The notes under the pieces: model-generated
What the model was told of the DNA's origin: nothing
Databases searched by the model: none
Seen by the model: only the letters and a program-made list of their open reading frames with translations
Made by a program: the position numbers and the translations under genes
Shown: in pieces, positions 20,669 to 28,885 of the stretch
Layout of the letters: every line of letters starts with the position of its first letter
Numbering within the stretch: position 1 is the first letter of the stretch
DNA from: Candidatus Chloroploca mongolica
GTDB lineage: Bacteria; Chloroflexota; Chloroflexia; Chloroflexales; Chloroflexaceae
Reading direction: 5' to 3'
NCBI RefSeq assembly: GCF_004762035.2
Contig: NZ_SIJK02000027.1
Coordinates: 3,764-67,763 of the forward strand
DNA length: 64,000 bases

Positions 20669-21020
20669 TATTTATACAGAACCTTGAGCGAAAAGATAAT
20701 CAAAGTCGATTCGATCTGCATTACCTTTTCCGTAAATACAAAGGTTAGTATAACACAGCCAGCACATGTACCGGTACAAAGACATCCAGCATCTGCGCCC
20801 CTCTGCGTCACTCTGCGGTGAACAAAACAAGCTTTTGGCGTTGACAGACTACTCCGTTATTCTTTGAACGCAGTTTTCCGGTCTTTTCCGAGCCTGGGTG
20901 TGCGCCGCATGGTAGCGCGGGCTTCCAGCCCGCACGCAGGAAAGTAGCGCGGGCTTCCAGCCCGCACGCAGGAAAGTAGCGCGGGCTGGAAGCCCGCACG
21001 CAGGCTGGAAGCCCGCGCCA
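20669..21020. repeat. REP-type repeat array
   Basis: The gap between the PAS-GGDEF gene and the VWA gene has a 32-bp unit, gtagcgcgggcttccagccc plus gcacgcaggaaa, at 20912-20943 and 20944-20975. A third copy at 20976 carries its core in the inverted orientation (gcgggctggaagcccgc) and is followed by another half copy ending at 21019. The array reaches to within two bases of the VWA stop codon. Upstream of it, 20790-20870 is a degenerate gcagagtgacgcagagg element. No gene is seen. Confidence 0.85.
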
Positions 21021-22175
21021 CTATATCTCACCCCGCGCCGCAACGAAGCCTTGCGCCGCCGCCCATTGTCCAAGGTCGCGGCGGTTAATGGCAACGGCCA
21101 TGAGATCAGGGAAAAGGTCGGGCGTACAGGCAAAGGTTGGGACTCCAAGGGTAGCCAGAGCCGAGGCGTTACGCTGATCGTACGCTGGTGCGCCCTGGTC
21201 GCTGAGCGCAAGCAGGGCGATCAGTTGAACACCCGAGGTTGTCAGGTTCGCAGCACGCTGCAGCATTTCGTTCACGTTGCCACCTTCGTAGAGGTCACTG
21301 ATCAGCACAATGATCGTCTCTTGCGGGCGACGTACCAGGCTCTGACAATAGGCGAGCGCCTGGTTGATGTCGGTGCCGCCCCCGAGTTGCACACCAAAGA
21401 GCAATTCTACAGGGTCGTTGAGGTCGGTGGTGAGGTCAACCACGGCGGTGTCAAAGACAACCATACGCGTTGACACAGCGGGCAGCGAGGCGAGCACAGC
21501 CCCAAAGACGCTGCTGTAGACAACTGATGGCCCCATCGAGCCGCTCTGGTCAACACAAAGGATGATGTCGCGGAGTGAGCCACGCTTGCGACCGTAGCCA
21601 ATCAATCGTTCGGGGATGATCGTGCGATAGGCCGGCTGATAGTGGCGCAGATTGCGGCGAATCGTGCGCCCCCAGTCAATTTCGTTGTGGCGCGGGCGGA
21701 AATTCCGCGTTGCGCGACTGAGGCTGCCGACGATCGCCTGGCGCGTCGGGGCTTCGAGCTTGCGCGAGAGTTCTTCAACAACCTTGCGCACCACCTGTCG
21801 TGCTGTGTCAATGACTCGGTTCGGCATGACGCTGCGCAGACTGATCAGCGTACTCACCAGATGCACGTCGGGGGTGACACTATTGAGCAGTTCAGGTTCG
21901 AGCAGCATTCGTTGCAAATTGAGCCGCTCGATAGCGTCGCGTTGCATCACCTGGACAACCGGCGAGGGGAAATAGGTGCGAATATCACCGAGCCAGCGCG
22001 CCACCGATGGCGACGAACCACTCAGACTCGCGCTGCGCTCACGGTCGTACAAGGTCTCCATGGCACGATCCATCGCCAGGTCGTTGCCCTGCAAGGTATA
22101 GCCAAGGCTCTCATTGGCACTCTCACCGAGGATCAAGCGCCAGCGTCGTTGGCGTTCAGTTTCTGTTATAGGCAT
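21021..22175 (-). CDS. VWA-domain protein (CoxE-like)
   Basis: A 384-residue protein whose C-terminal half is a von Willebrand A domain with an intact MIDAS: CVDQSGSMGPS (DxSxS), then the conserved threonine in GGGTDINQAL and the aspartate in LISDLYEGG. The N-terminal half is helical with basic segments (RNFRPRHNEIDWGRTIRRNLRHY) typical of the CoxE-like group that works with MoxR ATPases. The start at 22175 follows GGGGAG; a longer reading only translates the hairpin at 22189-22258. It is the last gene of the SWIM-DUF5691-MoxR-DUF5682-VWA cluster. Confidence 0.88.
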   Translation of the reverse strand: MPITETERQRRWRLILGESANESLGYTLQGNDLAMDRAMETLYDRERSASLSGSSPSVARWLGDIRTYFPSPVVQVMQRDAIERLNLQRMLLEPELLNSVTPDVHLVSTLISLRSVMPNRVIDTARQVVRKVVEELSRKLEAPTRQAIVGSLSRATRNFRPRHNEIDWGRTIRRNLRHYQPAYRTIIPERLIGYGRKRGSLRDIILCVDQSGSMGPSVVYSSVFGAVLASLPAVSTRMVVFDTAVVDLTTDLNDPVELLFGVQLGGGTDINQALAYCQSLVRRPQETIIVLISDLYEGGNVNEMLQRAANLTTSGVQLIALLALSDQGAPAYDQRNASALATLGVPTFACTPDLFPDLMAVAINRRDLGQWAAAQGFVAARGEI

Positions 22176-22188
22176 TTTTTCTCCCCAA

Positions 22189-22258
22189 ACCTGCCAGGAG
22201 TGCGCTTGCAGCGATCTTTGGTGGAACCGAGACATGCGCCAGCGCACTCCTGGCAGGT
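22189..22258. terminator. 18-bp inverted repeat inside the VWA cluster
   Basis: Arms 22189-22206 and 22241-22258 are exact reverse complements separated by 34 bases. They sit between the DUF5682 stop and the VWA start, so the structure may attenuate or process the transcript rather than end it. Confidence 0.6.
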
Positions 22259-22279
22259 CTCATTGCGACCTCAATCTTC

Positions 22280-24532
22280 CTACCTCCTCGTTACGATCAG
22301 TTGAATCCGTGCTAACGCTGCTTCGGCGCGAGCGACATCAAAGCGCAGATGCTCTTCACGTGGGCGTGCGCCAGGTGCCTGTTTGACACGTTCGCCAAGG
22401 AGGTGCCGTTCGTGCGGTGTGAAGGTAGCAAAGGTGCGCCGTAAGAGCGGGACGATGGTCTGGAAGGTTTCGTCGTTGAGCGTGCCAAGCCAGGTATCGA
22501 CGAGACGCCAGAGTTGTTCGTCATGCACGATGAACATGCCACTACCCTGAAGCAAGCCCTCGATCCAGGCAGCCGCCGCCGTGGGTGGCTGGGCCGATGA
22601 AAGGGCCTGGCTCAAGAGGCGCGCTGCTGCGTCGTTGCTCAGGCGTTCAGCGTCGAGCAACAGACGGCACGCCTGGCCGGCGATCAGGCCATGAATATGC
22701 GGTGCTTGCACGAGTTGGGCCAGAGCCGTAAGCCATTGCTCGCGTTGCGCAGGCTGCCCAAGCAGACCAATGGCCGCGTTGGTCGCCGCAATGCGCCGAC
22801 TCATCGTTACCGCGGCTTCGTCGTTGACATTGGTGCAGACATTGATTAAGCCGATGCAGATCCGCGTGACCATGCCGTCAACAACGATGGCAATGAGACT
22901 CGTGTCAAGCTCGCGCACGCTGCCGTACCGCAGGCTGTTGACGAGGCTGCTGCGTGTCTGCCCATCTTCGCTCGTCAGCGCATCCATCAACGCTCCGGCA
23001 TCGTTTGTATGCGTGGCCCGCCGCTGGAGCATATCCATCAGCGGCGGTATTGCGTCAGGAAGATCGGCAAATAAGGCTTTATTGACAATCGAAATAAGAG
23101 TGCTCAGCACATCACTCTTGCTGGCGCGGTCGAGCGTGCGTGCCGTGGCTGCCCCGCGTACCGTTGTGCCCCAGATGGCGGCTTCGATCAGGGCGACGTC
23201 AAAAGCGGGTTGCCATTGCAGCCACCAGGTCTCACGGAAGGTTCCGGTGCCCGTCACGTCGCCCGGTTCACCCCAGGCCAGGCCGAGCAGATTCAACTGG
23301 CGCACCAGGGCGCTCTGTTCGCGGTGGTTAGCTTTGCGCAGATCCAGTTCGACCAGGCGTCGCTCGGCGGTTGGCTTCATGCGGAGCCGCCGCTGTTGCT
23401 GGCGGAGATCTTGCTGCAAGGGGACGAGCGGGGTTTCGTCGGGGATGCTGCCGATGCGTTCGCCAACAATCAGTTGCTGGTGAATGAGGTGCATCGGCGC
23501 GTCGTTGCCGGTGCAGAAGACCGCCCGCGCTGCTTCTTCAAGCTCACTCAACCCTGGCACAGGGTGTTCGCGCAGCGCCGCTAGCGCTTCGGCGAGGCGC
23601 ACTGCTTCGATGATATGCGCCGATGAGGCGTCGAGATCGTGCTGCCGCAACAACCGGGCAACGCTGGTCATCCATTGGATCGTGACCGCCGTTGCATCGT
23701 GCGTGCTCGCACTCATTGCCCAGAGATGATCGTACCACCCTGGCGAGGCAATGCCGGCGCCATACCCACTGGCAACCGTGAGTCGTCCGTAGGTCCACGG
23801 GGCGAGCGTCGCCGCCGTTTTGATTTTTGGCAGCCCTTTGAGCAGTTGGTCATCAGTACGGGCAGCGTCAAGTGAGACCAGGGCTGGTGCGTGCCATGCC
23901 CCACAGACCACCGCGATCCGCTGAAAGCCCTCGCGGCGTGCCTGGCGGAGCGTACGGCGCATCCAGGCTTCGCGATAGGCCTCGTGCGGATCGGTTGGCG
24001 TCGGTTGATCCTCGCGCAGCGCGCTCATCGCCTCAAGGACCGCGCTGAAGATCGCCGCATCATCGCGGCGCTGCTCGACCAACTCCTCCCACCAGCGTTC
24101 GCCATCGCTATAGCCTGCCGCGAGCGCCAGGGCACCGAGAGGATCGTCGGCAGGGTGCAAGATCGGTGAAACACCAGCCTCCCTGTGAGCCTCCCCGGTT
24201 TTTTCCAGTGCGAGCTGATGGAACTGCGGCAGATCCATACAGCGCACAGGAATCTGCTGGTGCAGGGCGTACGTAATCGCCTGAAACTCGGGCGAAAAGC
24301 GGGCAAACGGATAAAAGACGGCCTGATCGGGGCGCTCGGTGGCATAGATGAGCAGAGCGATGGGCGGTTTGAGCTCGGGATGGGCGAGCAGGGGCAAGAT
24401 CGGGTCGGCCTCGGGCGGCCCTTCGACCAGAACAAGATCGGGGGCAAGTTCCGTCAAGGCCCGGCGCAGACTGCGCGCCGAACCAGGCCCGTGGTGGCGA
24501 ATACCAAAGATGTGGTGGGTTGCGGGTGCCAT
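22280..24532 (-). CDS. DUF5682 family protein
   Basis: A 750-residue cytoplasmic protein of the DUF5682 family. The N-terminal part has FGIRHHGPGSARSLRRAL and VLVEGPPEADPIL, a conserved histidine-rich opening. The mid section has VVCGAWHAPAL, which resembles the glycine/histidine cluster of TraB/ChaN-type folds. The C-terminal half is helical and repeat-like. The function is unknown. The gene starts six bases after the MoxR gene ends, which argues for co-translation. The family recurs beside MoxR ATPases and VWA proteins in other bacteria, so it is likely a client or adaptor of that pair (inference). Confidence 0.8.
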   Translation of the reverse strand: MAPATHHIFGIRHHGPGSARSLRRALTELAPDLVLVEGPPEADPILPLLAHPELKPPIALLIYATERPDQAVFYPFARFSPEFQAITYALHQQIPVRCMDLPQFHQLALEKTGEAHREAGVSPILHPADDPLGALALAAGYSDGERWWEELVEQRRDDAAIFSAVLEAMSALREDQPTPTDPHEAYREAWMRRTLRQARREGFQRIAVVCGAWHAPALVSLDAARTDDQLLKGLPKIKTAATLAPWTYGRLTVASGYGAGIASPGWYDHLWAMSASTHDATAVTIQWMTSVARLLRQHDLDASSAHIIEAVRLAEALAALREHPVPGLSELEEAARAVFCTGNDAPMHLIHQQLIVGERIGSIPDETPLVPLQQDLRQQQRRLRMKPTAERRLVELDLRKANHREQSALVRQLNLLGLAWGEPGDVTGTGTFRETWWLQWQPAFDVALIEAAIWGTTVRGAATARTLDRASKSDVLSTLISIVNKALFADLPDAIPPLMDMLQRRATHTNDAGALMDALTSEDGQTRSSLVNSLRYGSVRELDTSLIAIVVDGMVTRICIGLINVCTNVNDEAAVTMSRRIAATNAAIGLLGQPAQREQWLTALAQLVQAPHIHGLIAGQACRLLLDAERLSNDAAARLLSQALSSAQPPTAAAAWIEGLLQGSGMFIVHDEQLWRLVDTWLGTLNDETFQTIVPLLRRTFATFTPHERHLLGERVKQAPGARPREEHLRFDVARAEAALARIQLIVTRR

Positions 24533-24538
24533 AGTGCC

Positions 24539-25618
24539 TCAGGCAAGTTCACGGCAGGCGCGGTAGAGATCTTTCCAACCTTCGCGTTCTTTGACGACGG
24601 TTTCGAGGTATTCAAGCCAGGCAACGCGGTCTTGAACCGGATCTTTGATCACGGCGCCAACCAGCACGGCAGCCACATCGCCCGCTCGCAAGGCACCATC
24701 ACCAAAATGGGCCGCGAGCGCCATGCCGCTATTGACCACCGAAATCGCCTCGGCGGTGCTGAGCGTGCCGCTCGGTGATTTGAGACTTGTCCGGCCATCG
24801 GCGGTCATCCCGGCGCGTAATTCACGGAAGATCGTCACAATCCGGCGGATCTCTTCGAGGGCTGGCGGTTCGCCTGGCAACTCCAGGGCACGCCCGAGAC
24901 TCGTCACGCGTTGCTGCACAATCTCAACCTCTTGTTCGAGGCTATCAGGGAGCGGCAGCACGACCGTATTGAAGCGGCGCTTGAGCGCACTCGAAAGCTC
25001 GTTGACGCCACGGTCGCGATCGTTAGCGGTCGCGATCAGATTGAAGCCCTTGACGGCCTGCACTTCGCTACCGAGTTCAGGAATGGGCAAGGTTTTTTCG
25101 GAGAGGATCGTAATCAACGAATCCTGCACCTCGGCAGGAATGCGCGTCAACTCTTCGACACGGGCAATTTTGCCTTCTTGCATCGCCCGCATCAACGGGC
25201 TAGCGACGATTGCAGCGGCACTTGGGCCATCGGCGAGCAAGCGGGCATAGTTCCAGCCATAGCGAATCGACTCCTCGCTGGTGCCAGCGGTGCCCTGGAC
25301 AAGCATGGTCGAATCGCCGCTAATCGCCGCCGCCAAATGCTCTGAAACCCAACTCTTGGCGGTTCCGGGCAACCCGATCAGCAACAGGCCCCGGTCGGTG
25401 GCAAGGGTAGCAATGGCTGTTTCGATCAGCCGACGTGCCCCGATATACTTTGGCGTAATCGTCGTCCCGTCGGGCAACTGCCCACCAAGCAAGTAGGTCG
25501 CCACGGCCCAGGGTGACAAGCGCCAGCGTGGCGGGCGCTGGCGCTGATCATGGGCGGCCAGCGCGTGCAACTCATCTGCGTACTGCTGCTCGGCATGTTC
25601 ACGAAGGAGTGAGGTCAT
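24539..25618 (-). CDS. MoxR-type AAA+ ATPase
   Basis: A 359-residue AAA+ ATPase of the MoxR branch, which remodels or activates protein complexes together with VWA partners. The Walker A is GLPGTAKS. The Walker B position reads ARVEELTR, where most MoxR proteins have IDEINR, so the usual aspartate is replaced by glutamate. Sensor 1 is in GFNLIATANDRDRGVNELSSALKRRF. The start is the ATG at 25618 after AAGGAAA; an 81-residue upstream extension only translates the hairpin region. It lies between DUF5691 and DUF5682 in the same direction. Confidence 0.9.
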   Translation of the reverse strand: MTSLLREHAEQQYADELHALAAHDQRQRPPRWRLSPWAVATYLLGGQLPDGTTITPKYIGARRLIETAIATLATDRGLLLIGLPGTAKSWVSEHLAAAISGDSTMLVQGTAGTSEESIRYGWNYARLLADGPSAAAIVASPLMRAMQEGKIARVEELTRIPAEVQDSLITILSEKTLPIPELGSEVQAVKGFNLIATANDRDRGVNELSSALKRRFNTVVLPLPDSLEQEVEIVQQRVTSLGRALELPGEPPALEEIRRIVTIFRELRAGMTADGRTSLKSPSGTLSTAEAISVVNSGMALAAHFGDGALRAGDVAAVLVGAVIKDPVQDRVAWLEYLETVVKEREGWKDLYRACRELA

Positions 25619-25659
25619 ATGTGTGTTTCCTTGTTGTGCTGACGCACGAGGGAGATTCT

Positions 25660-25729
25660 TGGGGGCTACGCCCCTAAACCCTGTTCTGTTGTGCGGTGTT
25701 GGCGGCAAAGCCGCCAACACCGCACAACA
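25660..25729. terminator. 20-bp hairpin between MoxR and DUF5691 genes
   Basis: Arms 25687-25706 and 25710-25729 are exact reverse complements around aaa. A second small stem, ggggc-tac-gcccc, lies just before it near 25660. Neither is followed by a T-run. It separates two genes of one apparent operon. Confidence 0.65.
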
Positions 25730-25748
25730 TGTCCATGGGTGCGCAGCC

Positions 25749-27323
25749 CTAAAGTGCATGTTCAGGGGCCTGGAAGACTTCGGCGATGCGATAACGGAGG
25801 CGTAACCGTTCGCCAAAAAGCACCATGATCTGTCGCCAGTAGTTATGTCCAACAAGCGCAAGGGGAATTATATCGTCTACTTCATCAGCTATTTCAGGGG
25901 GGACTGCCTCGACGAGCAGATCAAGCGTTAGCCGCAATTCATAGAAGGCTTGGGCGTTGGCTGGTTGTATATGAGCCAGTTCACGGGCGACTTGCGCAAG
26001 CATAGCCCTGGCGAGTTGCGGGCTCCAGGGCGTGATGCTGGCTTCAAGCAACTGGCGGGTCAGGCCATGCTGCGGGGCTTTCTGATCGGCCTTGAGCAAC
26101 GTGAGGACGAGGATTTCGCGCTCGACCGGCGGAATCAGGGCCAAAAGAGGGAAGACATCGACGGCATCAGGGTTTTTCAGACCATAGGCAACCAGCGCCT
26201 GCGCCCATGCCTGATCGCGAAAAGCGAGCGTTGCCGTAATCCAGGCTTTGAGCATCGGCTCACGCCATTCTTTGGGCATCCGTGTTTCGAGCAGGGTAGA
26301 GGCCGAACGCGACCAGGCGTCGCACCAGGCCGATGGTGGCGTTCGGGCGACGATGGCGATCAGCCACCAGGTACGCTCGCCAAGCCCAAGCGGAGGTGCG
26401 AGGCTAATGCCATCACGCTGCATCGCCTCGTCACACACCGTAGGCAATTCAATGCTCAACTTAGCGAGCAAGCCGCCGCTATACCGCACCAGCGCCAGGG
26501 CTCGCTCGGTCATACGCTGGGCCAGGCGCGAGGTTGGCAGGGTCGCCAGCAACGCGGCGGCTGTCTGGCGAACACCTTTGCTTCGGTCGTCAAGCGCCGT
26601 TTCGAGCAACGGCTCATCGGCGCTGCACAAACCGACCCGCAGCGCCTCAAGCAACGCCTGGCGATCATCGGCCTTCTCTTGCGACCAGGTCGTCTCGATG
26701 AGCGAGCGGGCGAGAGCGGGGCGTTCGGGACGCACAGCCTTCAGCAGCGCCAGCCGCTCGCCACGAGTACCCACGTCCCACGCAGCCTGGAGCGCTGCCG
26801 CATCCTGCGCGGCCACCGCTGTCTCACTGACCGACGCAAAGACCCATCCGGGATGAAAGGTTGCGAGCCAGCGGCCCCGTTCACCAACCACCTTCAGCAC
26901 CAGAGGTTGCAGATCGGGCGAGGTTCGAGCGCGTTCAAGCAATGCAGGCAGAAATTGCAGAGGAACCCGCACCCCGTGCGCAACGGCCCTGGTCAACCAC
27001 TCGCGCAACAGGGCCTCGGGCTGACCCTCAAACACCTGCGCCAACAGATCTGCCGCCTCGGGCGTACAGATTGATTGGGTCTCGTCGGGTGCAGGCGCAA
27101 CGGGATCAAGCGCAAGCACCGGCGGCAACACACCAGCGCGCACATAGAGCGTCGCTGCCGCAGCGGCATCAAGGAGCCGCGCCGCCGGGTCGTCCTCACC
27201 GGGCAATTCGGCGACCAGATCGGCCAGCGCACCAGCAGGAGGTTGCGGCAACTGTGGACGGCGTGCCGTCCCCAGCAGCGCCACCGTCGCCAGATCATGC
27301 CAATAATGCTGCGGATCACTCAT
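25749..27323 (-). CDS. DUF5691 family protein
   Basis: A 524-residue protein of the DUF5691 family, made largely of alpha-helical HEAT-like repeats (for example RQTAAALLATLPTSRLAQRM and SLIETTWSQEKADDRQALLEAL, in part). It has no signal peptide or catalytic motif that I can identify. It opens with SDPQHYWHDLATVALLGTARR, a conserved start for the family. Alternative ATGs at 27323 and 27326 are adjacent; I use 27323. It is the second gene of the cluster, after the SWIM protein. Its place suggests a scaffold in the MoxR-VWA machine; this is inference. Confidence 0.8.
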   Translation of the reverse strand: MSDPQHYWHDLATVALLGTARRPQLPQPPAGALADLVAELPGEDDPAARLLDAAAAATLYVRAGVLPPVLALDPVAPAPDETQSICTPEAADLLAQVFEGQPEALLREWLTRAVAHGVRVPLQFLPALLERARTSPDLQPLVLKVVGERGRWLATFHPGWVFASVSETAVAAQDAAALQAAWDVGTRGERLALLKAVRPERPALARSLIETTWSQEKADDRQALLEALRVGLCSADEPLLETALDDRSKGVRQTAAALLATLPTSRLAQRMTERALALVRYSGGLLAKLSIELPTVCDEAMQRDGISLAPPLGLGERTWWLIAIVARTPPSAWCDAWSRSASTLLETRMPKEWREPMLKAWITATLAFRDQAWAQALVAYGLKNPDAVDVFPLLALIPPVEREILVLTLLKADQKAPQHGLTRQLLEASITPWSPQLARAMLAQVARELAHIQPANAQAFYELRLTLDLLVEAVPPEIADEVDDIIPLALVGHNYWRQIMVLFGERLRLRYRIAEVFQAPEHAL

Positions 27324-27353
27324 CATACCCACCACCCCCAATGCCCCCTCGCG

Positions 27354-27391
27354 TGTAAGGAGTGTGGAGCGCAGCGCCCACACTCCTTACA
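27354..27391. terminator. 14-bp hairpin between SWIM and DUF5691 genes
   Basis: Arms 27354-27367 and 27378-27391 are exact reverse complements around agcgcagcgc. The right arm overlaps the SWIM gene stop region, so it could form in the intercistronic RNA. Confidence 0.55.
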
Positions 27392-28700
27392 GGCAAAAAA
27401 ATCCCCCCTCGCATTGCACACTCAACGGCAGCAACATCCCCCCATCCCATTCGCCCACGATGGTGAAAGGATGGCCGCCTGTCAAGGCCAGCAATTGCCA
27501 GATCTGCGTAGAAGTACGCGACAGGGGCAGCGTCTGGTCATCAGCGTCACACAGATACCAGCGGTCTTCTGCGCAGGCAAGACGACAGGGGCCAATGATC
27601 AACAGATGGCGTTCAAGCCAAGGCTGCTGTGCCAGCGCCGCCGCATAGATCCCAATGGCAGCATTGATTGACCAGCCTGGCAACGGGCCGGGTTCAGGCA
27701 CCAATTCCTCGCGAGTTCGTACGAGCGCACGTTGCGGCACCGAACCCGGATAAAAGACAAGCTCGCCGGCAAAAAAACTCCCCGGTACCAGGCTCTGGTC
27801 AAAAGGTTTCTCGGCCACACTAAAACTGAGCACCAGCGCCGGACGCTGTTCTGTCATTCCCCAGAGCCAGGTACGTTGCACACGCAGGCGCTCTTCATCT
27901 TCAATGCGCCGCCCAAGCACCAGCCACTGATCGAAGATACCCTGACCTGCCAGGAGCTCCTCCTGGCTCTGCGTAAAGCCAATGGTTGTTCGCACATCGG
28001 CCTGGAGATCGGGGGGCAGATCATCCAGGTGCGCATAGGCACGCGCAAGCAAGTGCAAAAGACTCAACTGATCAAGCAGACGGCCTTCCCAGCCGACGCC
28101 AGATCCTGGCAACAGGGCCGCCTCACGCAGGCGACGGGCCACGCCGGGGGCCTGCGCATCAACCATCCGGCTCGCAAATGGTGCAAAGAGGCCCAAAGCC
28201 CCTTCTTGCAACCCAGCGAGGCCCGTTCTGACGCGATCTTCAAGCCAACGGTCAAGCTCGAGCATACCCGCTGCCACACGCTGTTCACGCGCTGTCGGCG
28301 TACGCGAAGGTGGCGGTTCAGGCGCGGCAGATGCGGCGATAGGCGCAGCCTCGGCGGATACCTGGCGACGCTCGGCGGTACGGGCACGCTGTGCGAGCCA
28401 CTCAGCCACCCAGTCGGGCAACTCGGCCACTGGCACCTGATCAGCCTGGTTTGCCAGCAGCAACATCAGCGCAAGCGTATGTTTACAGGGGAGCTTGCGG
28501 CTCGGGCACGAGCAACGAAAGGCCAGGGTCTCAAGGTCAACCTGGACGCGATACGGATTGGCCCCACTGCCCTGACACTCGCCCCACAGGGCGCGGCTAT
28601 GCGTGCCAAGGTTTGGCCAGAGCTTTGGCAACGCCAGTTTCCTGGCCGCCGTCAACGACGCCGCATCAGGGGCCATGGCTGCAATCTGATCGTCGTGCAA
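27387..28700 (-). CDS. SWIM zinc-finger protein
   Basis: A 437-residue protein. The N-terminal zinc-binding SWIM motif is FRCSCPSRKLPCKH (CxCxnCxH), after the conserved WGECQGSGANPYRVQVDL. The rest has long helical and mixed segments without other recognised domains. SWIM fingers bind DNA or protein. I choose a TTG start at 28700 because GGAGG sits nine bases upstream and the resulting N-terminus (LHDDQIAAMAPDAAS) matches the family's short helical opening; no ATG gives a comparable fit. It is the first gene of the five-gene cluster. Confidence 0.85.
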   Translation of the reverse strand: MHDDQIAAMAPDAASLTAARKLALPKLWPNLGTHSRALWGECQGSGANPYRVQVDLETLAFRCSCPSRKLPCKHTLALMLLLANQADQVPVAELPDWVAEWLAQRARTAERRQVSAEAAPIAASAAPEPPPSRTPTAREQRVAAGMLELDRWLEDRVRTGLAGLQEGALGLFAPFASRMVDAQAPGVARRLREAALLPGSGVGWEGRLLDQLSLLHLLARAYAHLDDLPPDLQADVRTTIGFTQSQEELLAGQGIFDQWLVLGRRIEDEERLRVQRTWLWGMTEQRPALVLSFSVAEKPFDQSLVPGSFFAGELVFYPGSVPQRALVRTREELVPEPGPLPGWSINAAIGIYAAALAQQPWLERHLLIIGPCRLACAEDRWYLCDADDQTLPLSRTSTQIWQLLALTGGHPFTIVGEWDGGMLLPLSVQCEGGFFCL

Positions 28701-28744: not shown

Positions 28745-28872
28745 GGTAGGGGCGAAGCACCCGCCCGCGAGCACGGTGTACCTTCGGCATGCGGCAGAGG
28801 TAAGGGGCGAAGCACCCGCCCGCGAGCATGGTGTACCTTCGGCATGCGGCAGGGGCGGGTGCTTCGCCCCTA
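28745..28872. repeat. GC-rich repeat pair, 53-54-bp unit
   Basis: A unit with aggggcgaagcacccgcccg, then cgagcacggtgtaccttcgg and catgcggcag, occurs at about 28748-28800 and 28802-28854. An inverted half copy (ggggcgggtgcttcgcccct) closes it at 28852-28871. The element separates the SWIM gene from the sigma factor gene and may help isolate the two transcripts. Confidence 0.8.
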
Positions 28873-28885
28873 CGACTATCGCCCT

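Follow-up and report, generated by a model that had tools for sequence, protein, structure and literature searches.

The five-gene locus

On the minus strand of the window, i.e. the whole 64,000-nucleotide stretch of Candidatus Chloroploca mongolica DNA analysed here, five adjacent genes lie between positions 21021 and about 28700, and Pfam searches of the open reading frames (ORFs) found all of them at the places claimed by an earlier reading made from the letters alone (the sequence-only reading). In minus-strand order they code for a SWIM zinc-finger protein (27387..28700, Pfam SWIM 3.8e-6), a DUF5691 protein (25749..27383, Pfam DUF5691 4.2e-138), a MoxR AAA+ ATPase of the YehL subfamily (24539..25618, Pfam AAA_5 2.7e-38, likely start ATG 25618), a DUF5682 protein homologous to YehM (22280..24532, Pfam DUF5682 3.3e-257) and a VWA_CoxE protein homologous to YehP (21021..22175, Pfam VWA_CoxE 9.6e-52, likely start ATG 22175). 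The SWIM ORF is open to 28829; because the ATG at 28829 lies inside a repeat, the start, which is uncertain, was put at about 28700, giving a protein of about 432 amino acids. The five genes are flanked upstream by a sigma-70 gene of the same strand and downstream by a PAS-GGDEF gene.

Several repeats accompany the locus. The gap between the sigma-factor and SWIM genes harbours two copies of a 53-nt repeat delimited by a perfect inverted repeat of 21 nt (28746-28873), within which the longest SWIM ORF begins, and a repeat search revealed a perfect 20-nt inverted repeat with a 3-nt loop (25687..25729) in the gap between the DUF5691 and MoxR genes, before the MoxR gene. A long inverted repeat occupies the gap preceding the VWA gene (22189-22258), and a 32-nt unit with a palindromic core (GCGGGCTTCCAGCCCGC) occurs three times in tandem directly 3' of that gene (20903-21018). 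The source genome carries a single copy of DUF5682, and a search of this genome found no DUF4132. Its second-best AAA_5 match is a second MoxR-like ATPase on the same contig, 1.7 kb beyond the end of the window (G000:C80:69509-69970).

Conservation of the gene set across bacterial phyla

With the DUF5682 profile alone, 80 loci were fetched from named genomes; as these are the best 80 of 586 relatives, the sample is skewed to the subtype found in the window. Own profiles were used for the five families, and 57 of the fetched loci were long enough to be judged as complete. The order SWIM-DUF5691-MoxR-DUF5682-VWA on one strand was found in 47 of these 57 (again from the best 80 of 586 relatives), and in four further loci (L034, L065, L086 and L087) SWIM and DUF5691 share one reading frame. 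The remaining complete loci show small rearrangements, and in 2/57 DUF5682 has no partner gene inside the fetched flank. The hosts belong to at least 11 phyla, among them Cyanobacteriota, Chloroflexota, Pseudomonadota, Bacteroidota, Planctomycetota, Actinomycetota, Verrucomicrobiota, Deinococcota, Armatimonadota, Thermodesulfobacteriota and Thermomicrobiota. The gene order is thus fixed far beyond chance and the set is ancient. The sequence-only reading had described the set as conserved in other bacteria, which agrees with the order in these 47 loci, and it had proposed a neighbourhood survey asking whether the genes scatter in relatives, which they do not.

The five proteins differ widely in their rate of change. 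The median identity between the window protein and its counterparts in other phyla is 71-77% for MoxR, 58-67% for VWA, 44-50% for DUF5682, 37-45% for SWIM and 26-35% for DUF5691, so that by this measure SWIM and DUF5691 are the fastest-evolving of the five families. As a yardstick for MoxR, RecA of E. coli and of the source genome are 61% identical, and the motor must therefore be under unusually strong constraint; a motor subunit that is more conserved between phyla than RecA is usually part of something important. The DUF5682 tree groups by phylum, with 18 label changes compared to a mean of 51.7 after shuffling, and with the Chloroflexota scattered. Within the latter the distribution is patchy, DUF5682 being present in 32 of 201 genomes.

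The MoxR-VWA pair and the E. coli yeh operon

All catalytic elements of the ATPase are retained: the Walker A lysine, the Walker B EE, the sensor 1 Asn and the Arg finger are 100% conserved among 91 sequences, in which the motifs GxPGTAKS, EE, ATAN and LKRRF are essentially invariant. Likewise, the MIDAS of the VWA protein is complete, with D209, S211 and S213 (D209-x-S-x-S) and D294 conserved in 100% and T268 in 95% of 86 sequences.

The match of the DUF5682 profile in E. coli, which served as a control, led to yehL-yehM-yehP-yehQ. The window MoxR is 41% identical to YehL over its full length, the window DUF5682 29% identical to YehM and the window VWA protein 36% identical to YehP. By sequence and by gene neighbourhood the window MoxR is closest to YehL, and its kinship with yehLMPQ places it in the YehL subfamily, one of seven MoxR subfamilies (PMC3893208). 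The sequence-only reading was right in recognising a tight conserved set and missed both yehLMPQ and the subfamily. The two operons share the adjacent MoxR-DUF5682-VWA core on one strand as well as a SWIM gene. Unlike the window, however, the yeh operon lacks DUF5691, and yehQ, the SWIM gene, comes last and encodes a protein whose likeness to the window SWIM protein is confined to the zinc finger. In addition, a DUF4132 gene (yehI) and a WGR gene (yehF) lie upstream in E. coli, whereas DUF4132 is missing from the genome of the window. Two further relationships were considered and dropped: YehQ cannot be read as a fusion of SWIM and DUF5691 in disguise, the zinc finger being its sole matching part, and homology between DUF4132 and DUF5691 was not accepted (E 0.0023, probability 12%).

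In E. coli, yehLMPQ is near-core: 5162 of 5426 genomes contain at least 80% of the length of the operon. It is also dispensable, as it is missing from a reduced-genome strain (PMC10652928). A DUF4132 gene accompanies the operon in E. coli, Iodobacter, Sinorhizobium and several Chitinophagaceae. On the conjugative plasmid of Sinorhizobium sp. RAC02 (L111:8935-16421) it is situated within the MoxR-DUF5682-VWA-SWIM operon, which suggests that the YehL-type system includes DUF4132 among its components. These architecture variants, including those with DUF4132, are new here. In a search of the literature outside subscription journals, no paper on DUF5682 or DUF5691 was found, and the yeh gene names returned only gene lists and false matches. 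The literature searched thus offers no function for the operon, as the sequence-only reading had stated.

Co-occurrence of MoxR and DUF5682

A set of 41 related genomes divides into 23 that possess DUF5682 as well as this MoxR (counted as present at E 1e-40 or better) and 18 that lack the two. If the two were independent, an exact agreement of this kind would arise in about 1 in 2 x 10^11 arrangements, a figure that ignores relatedness and shared ancestry. One genome (G033) carries three DUF5682 genes together with three copies of this MoxR. MoxR and DUF5682 are therefore obligate partners, a partnership that is new here. DUF5691 has a more restricted spread: of 201 Chloroflexota genomes, 22 score above its cut-off, and every one of these also has DUF5682. 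Taken together, co-occurrence and restricted spread identify MoxR-DUF5682(-VWA) as the core of the system and DUF5691 as a part of one of its subtypes. A third subtype with the order VWA-MoxR-DUF5682 was observed in two Chloroflexota relatives (L107 and L108, from genomes G033 and G038), where DUF5682 is very divergent in sequence and has retained its active-site residues.

Regarding the two other genes, the SWIM zinc ligands C58, C60, C67 and H69 (numbered from 28685) are kept in 98-100% of 63 sequences. A natural SWIM-DUF5691 fusion was folded with a pLDDT of 90.4 and a pTM of 0.67, and its DUF5691 part is predicted to be a HEAT/ARM-like helical solenoid whose structural matches are helical repeats only. 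Kinship with importins, Integrator and others (Z 8-10) was not accepted, these being common solenoid arrangements. The fusion of SWIM and DUF5691 in some loci suggests that both act together, probably as an accessory zinc finger and scaffold.

A predicted TIKI/TraB-like domain in DUF5682

The predicted model of the window DUF5682 (pLDDT 90.5) comprises a TIKI/TraB-like alpha/beta domain (residues 1-225) and a helical solenoid (residues ~440-750). The best structural match of residues 1-225 is a chain of Tetrahymena complex IV (VIA Z 9.9, 191 residues aligned). This complex has been reported to contain a TraB-family subunit (PMC10060162), to which the matched chain probably corresponds; it is not nameable as TraB by sequence, because PDB sequence searches with YbaP and a set of GumN proteins returned nothing useful. 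In a library of viral structures, a protein of the TraB family ranked first (Foldseek probability 1.00, E 0.011), whereas a Foldseek search of the PDB with the model gave no match below E 0.001 and a PDB sequence search with DUF5682 gave none. In profile comparisons, hhalign of DUF5682 against seven GumN proteins produced a weak match (E 0.0035, probability 9%), the Pfam ChaN model matched DUF5682 in one relative at E 0.066, and searches with PF01963 and PF04187 in Chloroflexota yielded no family usable for a better profile. Since sequence profiles support the kinship weakly, membership in the TIKI/TraB superfamily rests on the predicted fold and on an ordered motif.

This motif is formed by residues that hardly vary. 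Among 102 DUF5682 sequences, H13, H14, E37, E82, D100, R187, E188 and H214 are invariant, as is G211, while G10 is conserved in 96%; distant subtypes also retain the eight polar residues. The TraB/GumN set has in common the ordered elements G-x-x-H, E, R and G-A-x-H, whose counterparts in DUF5682 follow in the same order (G10-x-x-H13, E37, R187, G211-A-x-H214). The 2His/2Glu set of Ere and RRSP is not matched, Arg12 of DUF5682 lying near the place of its first Glu, which the aligned TraB/GumN proteins likewise lack. Residues 1-225 may thus be said to resemble the TIKI/TraB/PrgY/GumN superfamily in predicted fold and ordered motif, an assignment that is new here. DUF5682 differs from that superfamily by its long C-terminal solenoid, by the additional invariant residues E82, D100 and E188, and by a His-His pair after the first strand with an Arg before it, and the sequence similarity is very weak. 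The invariant residues may together line one catalytic or metal-binding pocket.

A proposed client within the operon

MoxR-VWA pairs insert metals into their clients or remodel them, and in NorQ-NorD, where a finger of the VWA protein enters the pore of the ATPase, iron insertion needs the MIDAS residues as well as ATP hydrolysis (PMC13036017, PMC9976466). As in NorQ-NorD, RavA-ViaA and CbbQ-CbbO, a MoxR AAA+ protein and a MIDAS-bearing VWA protein are encoded together in the window; those pairs, however, belong to other MoxR subfamilies and serve known enzymes, whereas the client proposed here is a TIKI-like solenoid protein of the same operon. In line with the statement of the sequence-only reading that no client enzyme adjoins the genes, the survey of neighbours in the fetched loci found no recurrent candidate except DUF4132 in some of them. 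As no neighbouring enzyme recurs, and as DUF5682 is an obligate, active-site-bearing partner, DUF5682 as the client of MoxR-VWA is the simplest reading. We therefore favour, with a probability of roughly 0.55, an ATP-driven remodelling machine whose client is its own TIKI/TraB-like DUF5682/YehM protein. The suggestion that the DUF proteins might be clients is in this way strengthened for DUF5682, given its co-occurrence with MoxR in 41 genomes and its TIKI/TraB-like domain with invariant His, Glu and Asp residues; it is weaker for DUF5691, which consists of fast-evolving helical repeats, is fused to SWIM in four loci and is missing in E. coli.

According to this model, the MoxR ATPase, which is presumably hexameric, would pair with the VWA protein as motor and adaptor, as in NorQ-NorD and RavA-ViaA. 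With its MIDAS metal site the VWA protein would take hold of an acidic patch of DUF5682, ATP hydrolysis would open or remodel DUF5682, and the pocket would thereby be loaded with metal or a cofactor, or be switched on. SWIM and DUF5691 together would serve as an accessory zinc-finger/scaffold arm, perhaps for recruitment. A more specific version, in which DUF5682/YehM acts in the cytosol as a TIKI-type hydrolase or protease gated by the MoxR-VWA motor, is put forward only tentatively on the basis of the model. If true, this would be an ATP-controlled switch of a new kind, conserved from one bacterial phylum to the next and shared by E. coli K-12; the literature searched contains no description of an ATP-gated TIKI-type switch. 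Placing DUF5682 in the TIKI/TraB superfamily would provide a concrete, testable client for the whole MoxR subfamily, and as E. coli K-12 has a version of the operon, the reading is open to test in a strain that is standard in the laboratory.

Alternative readings

In the less probable case that DUF5682 is a third chaperone subunit, MoxR, VWA and DUF5682 as adaptor would jointly serve the maturation of a metal enzyme encoded elsewhere, respiratory or other, much as the RavA-ViaA targets fumarate reductase and Nuo are respiratory complexes outside the ravA-viaA operon (PMC3893208, PMC10585395). An adaptor role would be in keeping with the solenoid half of DUF5682, a typical kind of binding surface, and with the lack of a client gene next to the operon; the eight invariant polar residues, however, suggest an active or metal site and not a plain adaptor, and the hosts, which are photosynthetic, heterotrophic or enteric, have no evident enzyme in common. 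Remodelling of a DNA or RNA nucleoprotein complex, e.g. in the DNA damage response, appears very improbable. SWIM and WGR domains do occur in proteins that act on nucleic acids, and such a role would account for SWIM and DUF5691, for the WGR and DUF4132 proteins of other operon versions and for the association of DUF4132 with this type of operon in Chitinophagaceae, Escherichia, Iodobacter and Sinorhizobium, but DUF4132 is absent from the source genome, no parts evolve faster than SWIM and DUF5691, and Pfam recognises no nucleic-acid domain in the MoxR-DUF5682-VWA core.

A conflict or defence system, in which a TIKI-like protease or hydrolase effector is restrained by MoxR-VWA and triggered by infection, is unlikely. 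MoxR-VWA pairs do occur in conflict systems, among them ternary systems which likewise combine MoxR and VWA with further subunits (Kaur et al. 2020, PMC7159879); some copies of the operon are plasmid-borne, one of them adjoining a restriction-modification operon, and the patchy occurrence in Chloroflexota (32/201 genomes) would also fit. Yet the terms Yeh, SWIM and TIKI are absent from that paper, and the bpMoxR Pfam model scores the window MoxR at 22.9 bits, under its 27-bit cut-off. PADLOC returned no real match, only a partial one of the SWIM region to one candidate model (1.6e-4), and the neighbours of the fetched loci are mixed and, counted without a control set, include few defence genes and none that recur. 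Moreover, the components are strongly conserved and include no variable effector or sensor, the DUF5682 tree follows the phyla (18 label changes compared to 51.7 when shuffled), and the operon is near-core in E. coli (5162/5426 genomes). The association with conflict systems raised by the sequence-only reading is consequently not borne out for this operon.

The viral contigs searched contain no DUF5682. The phage collection holds a single DUF5682, at MT835988.1:10608-12758, in an unannotated 14-kb record from human faeces labelled "Bacteriophage sp.", which may be misassigned bacterial DNA.
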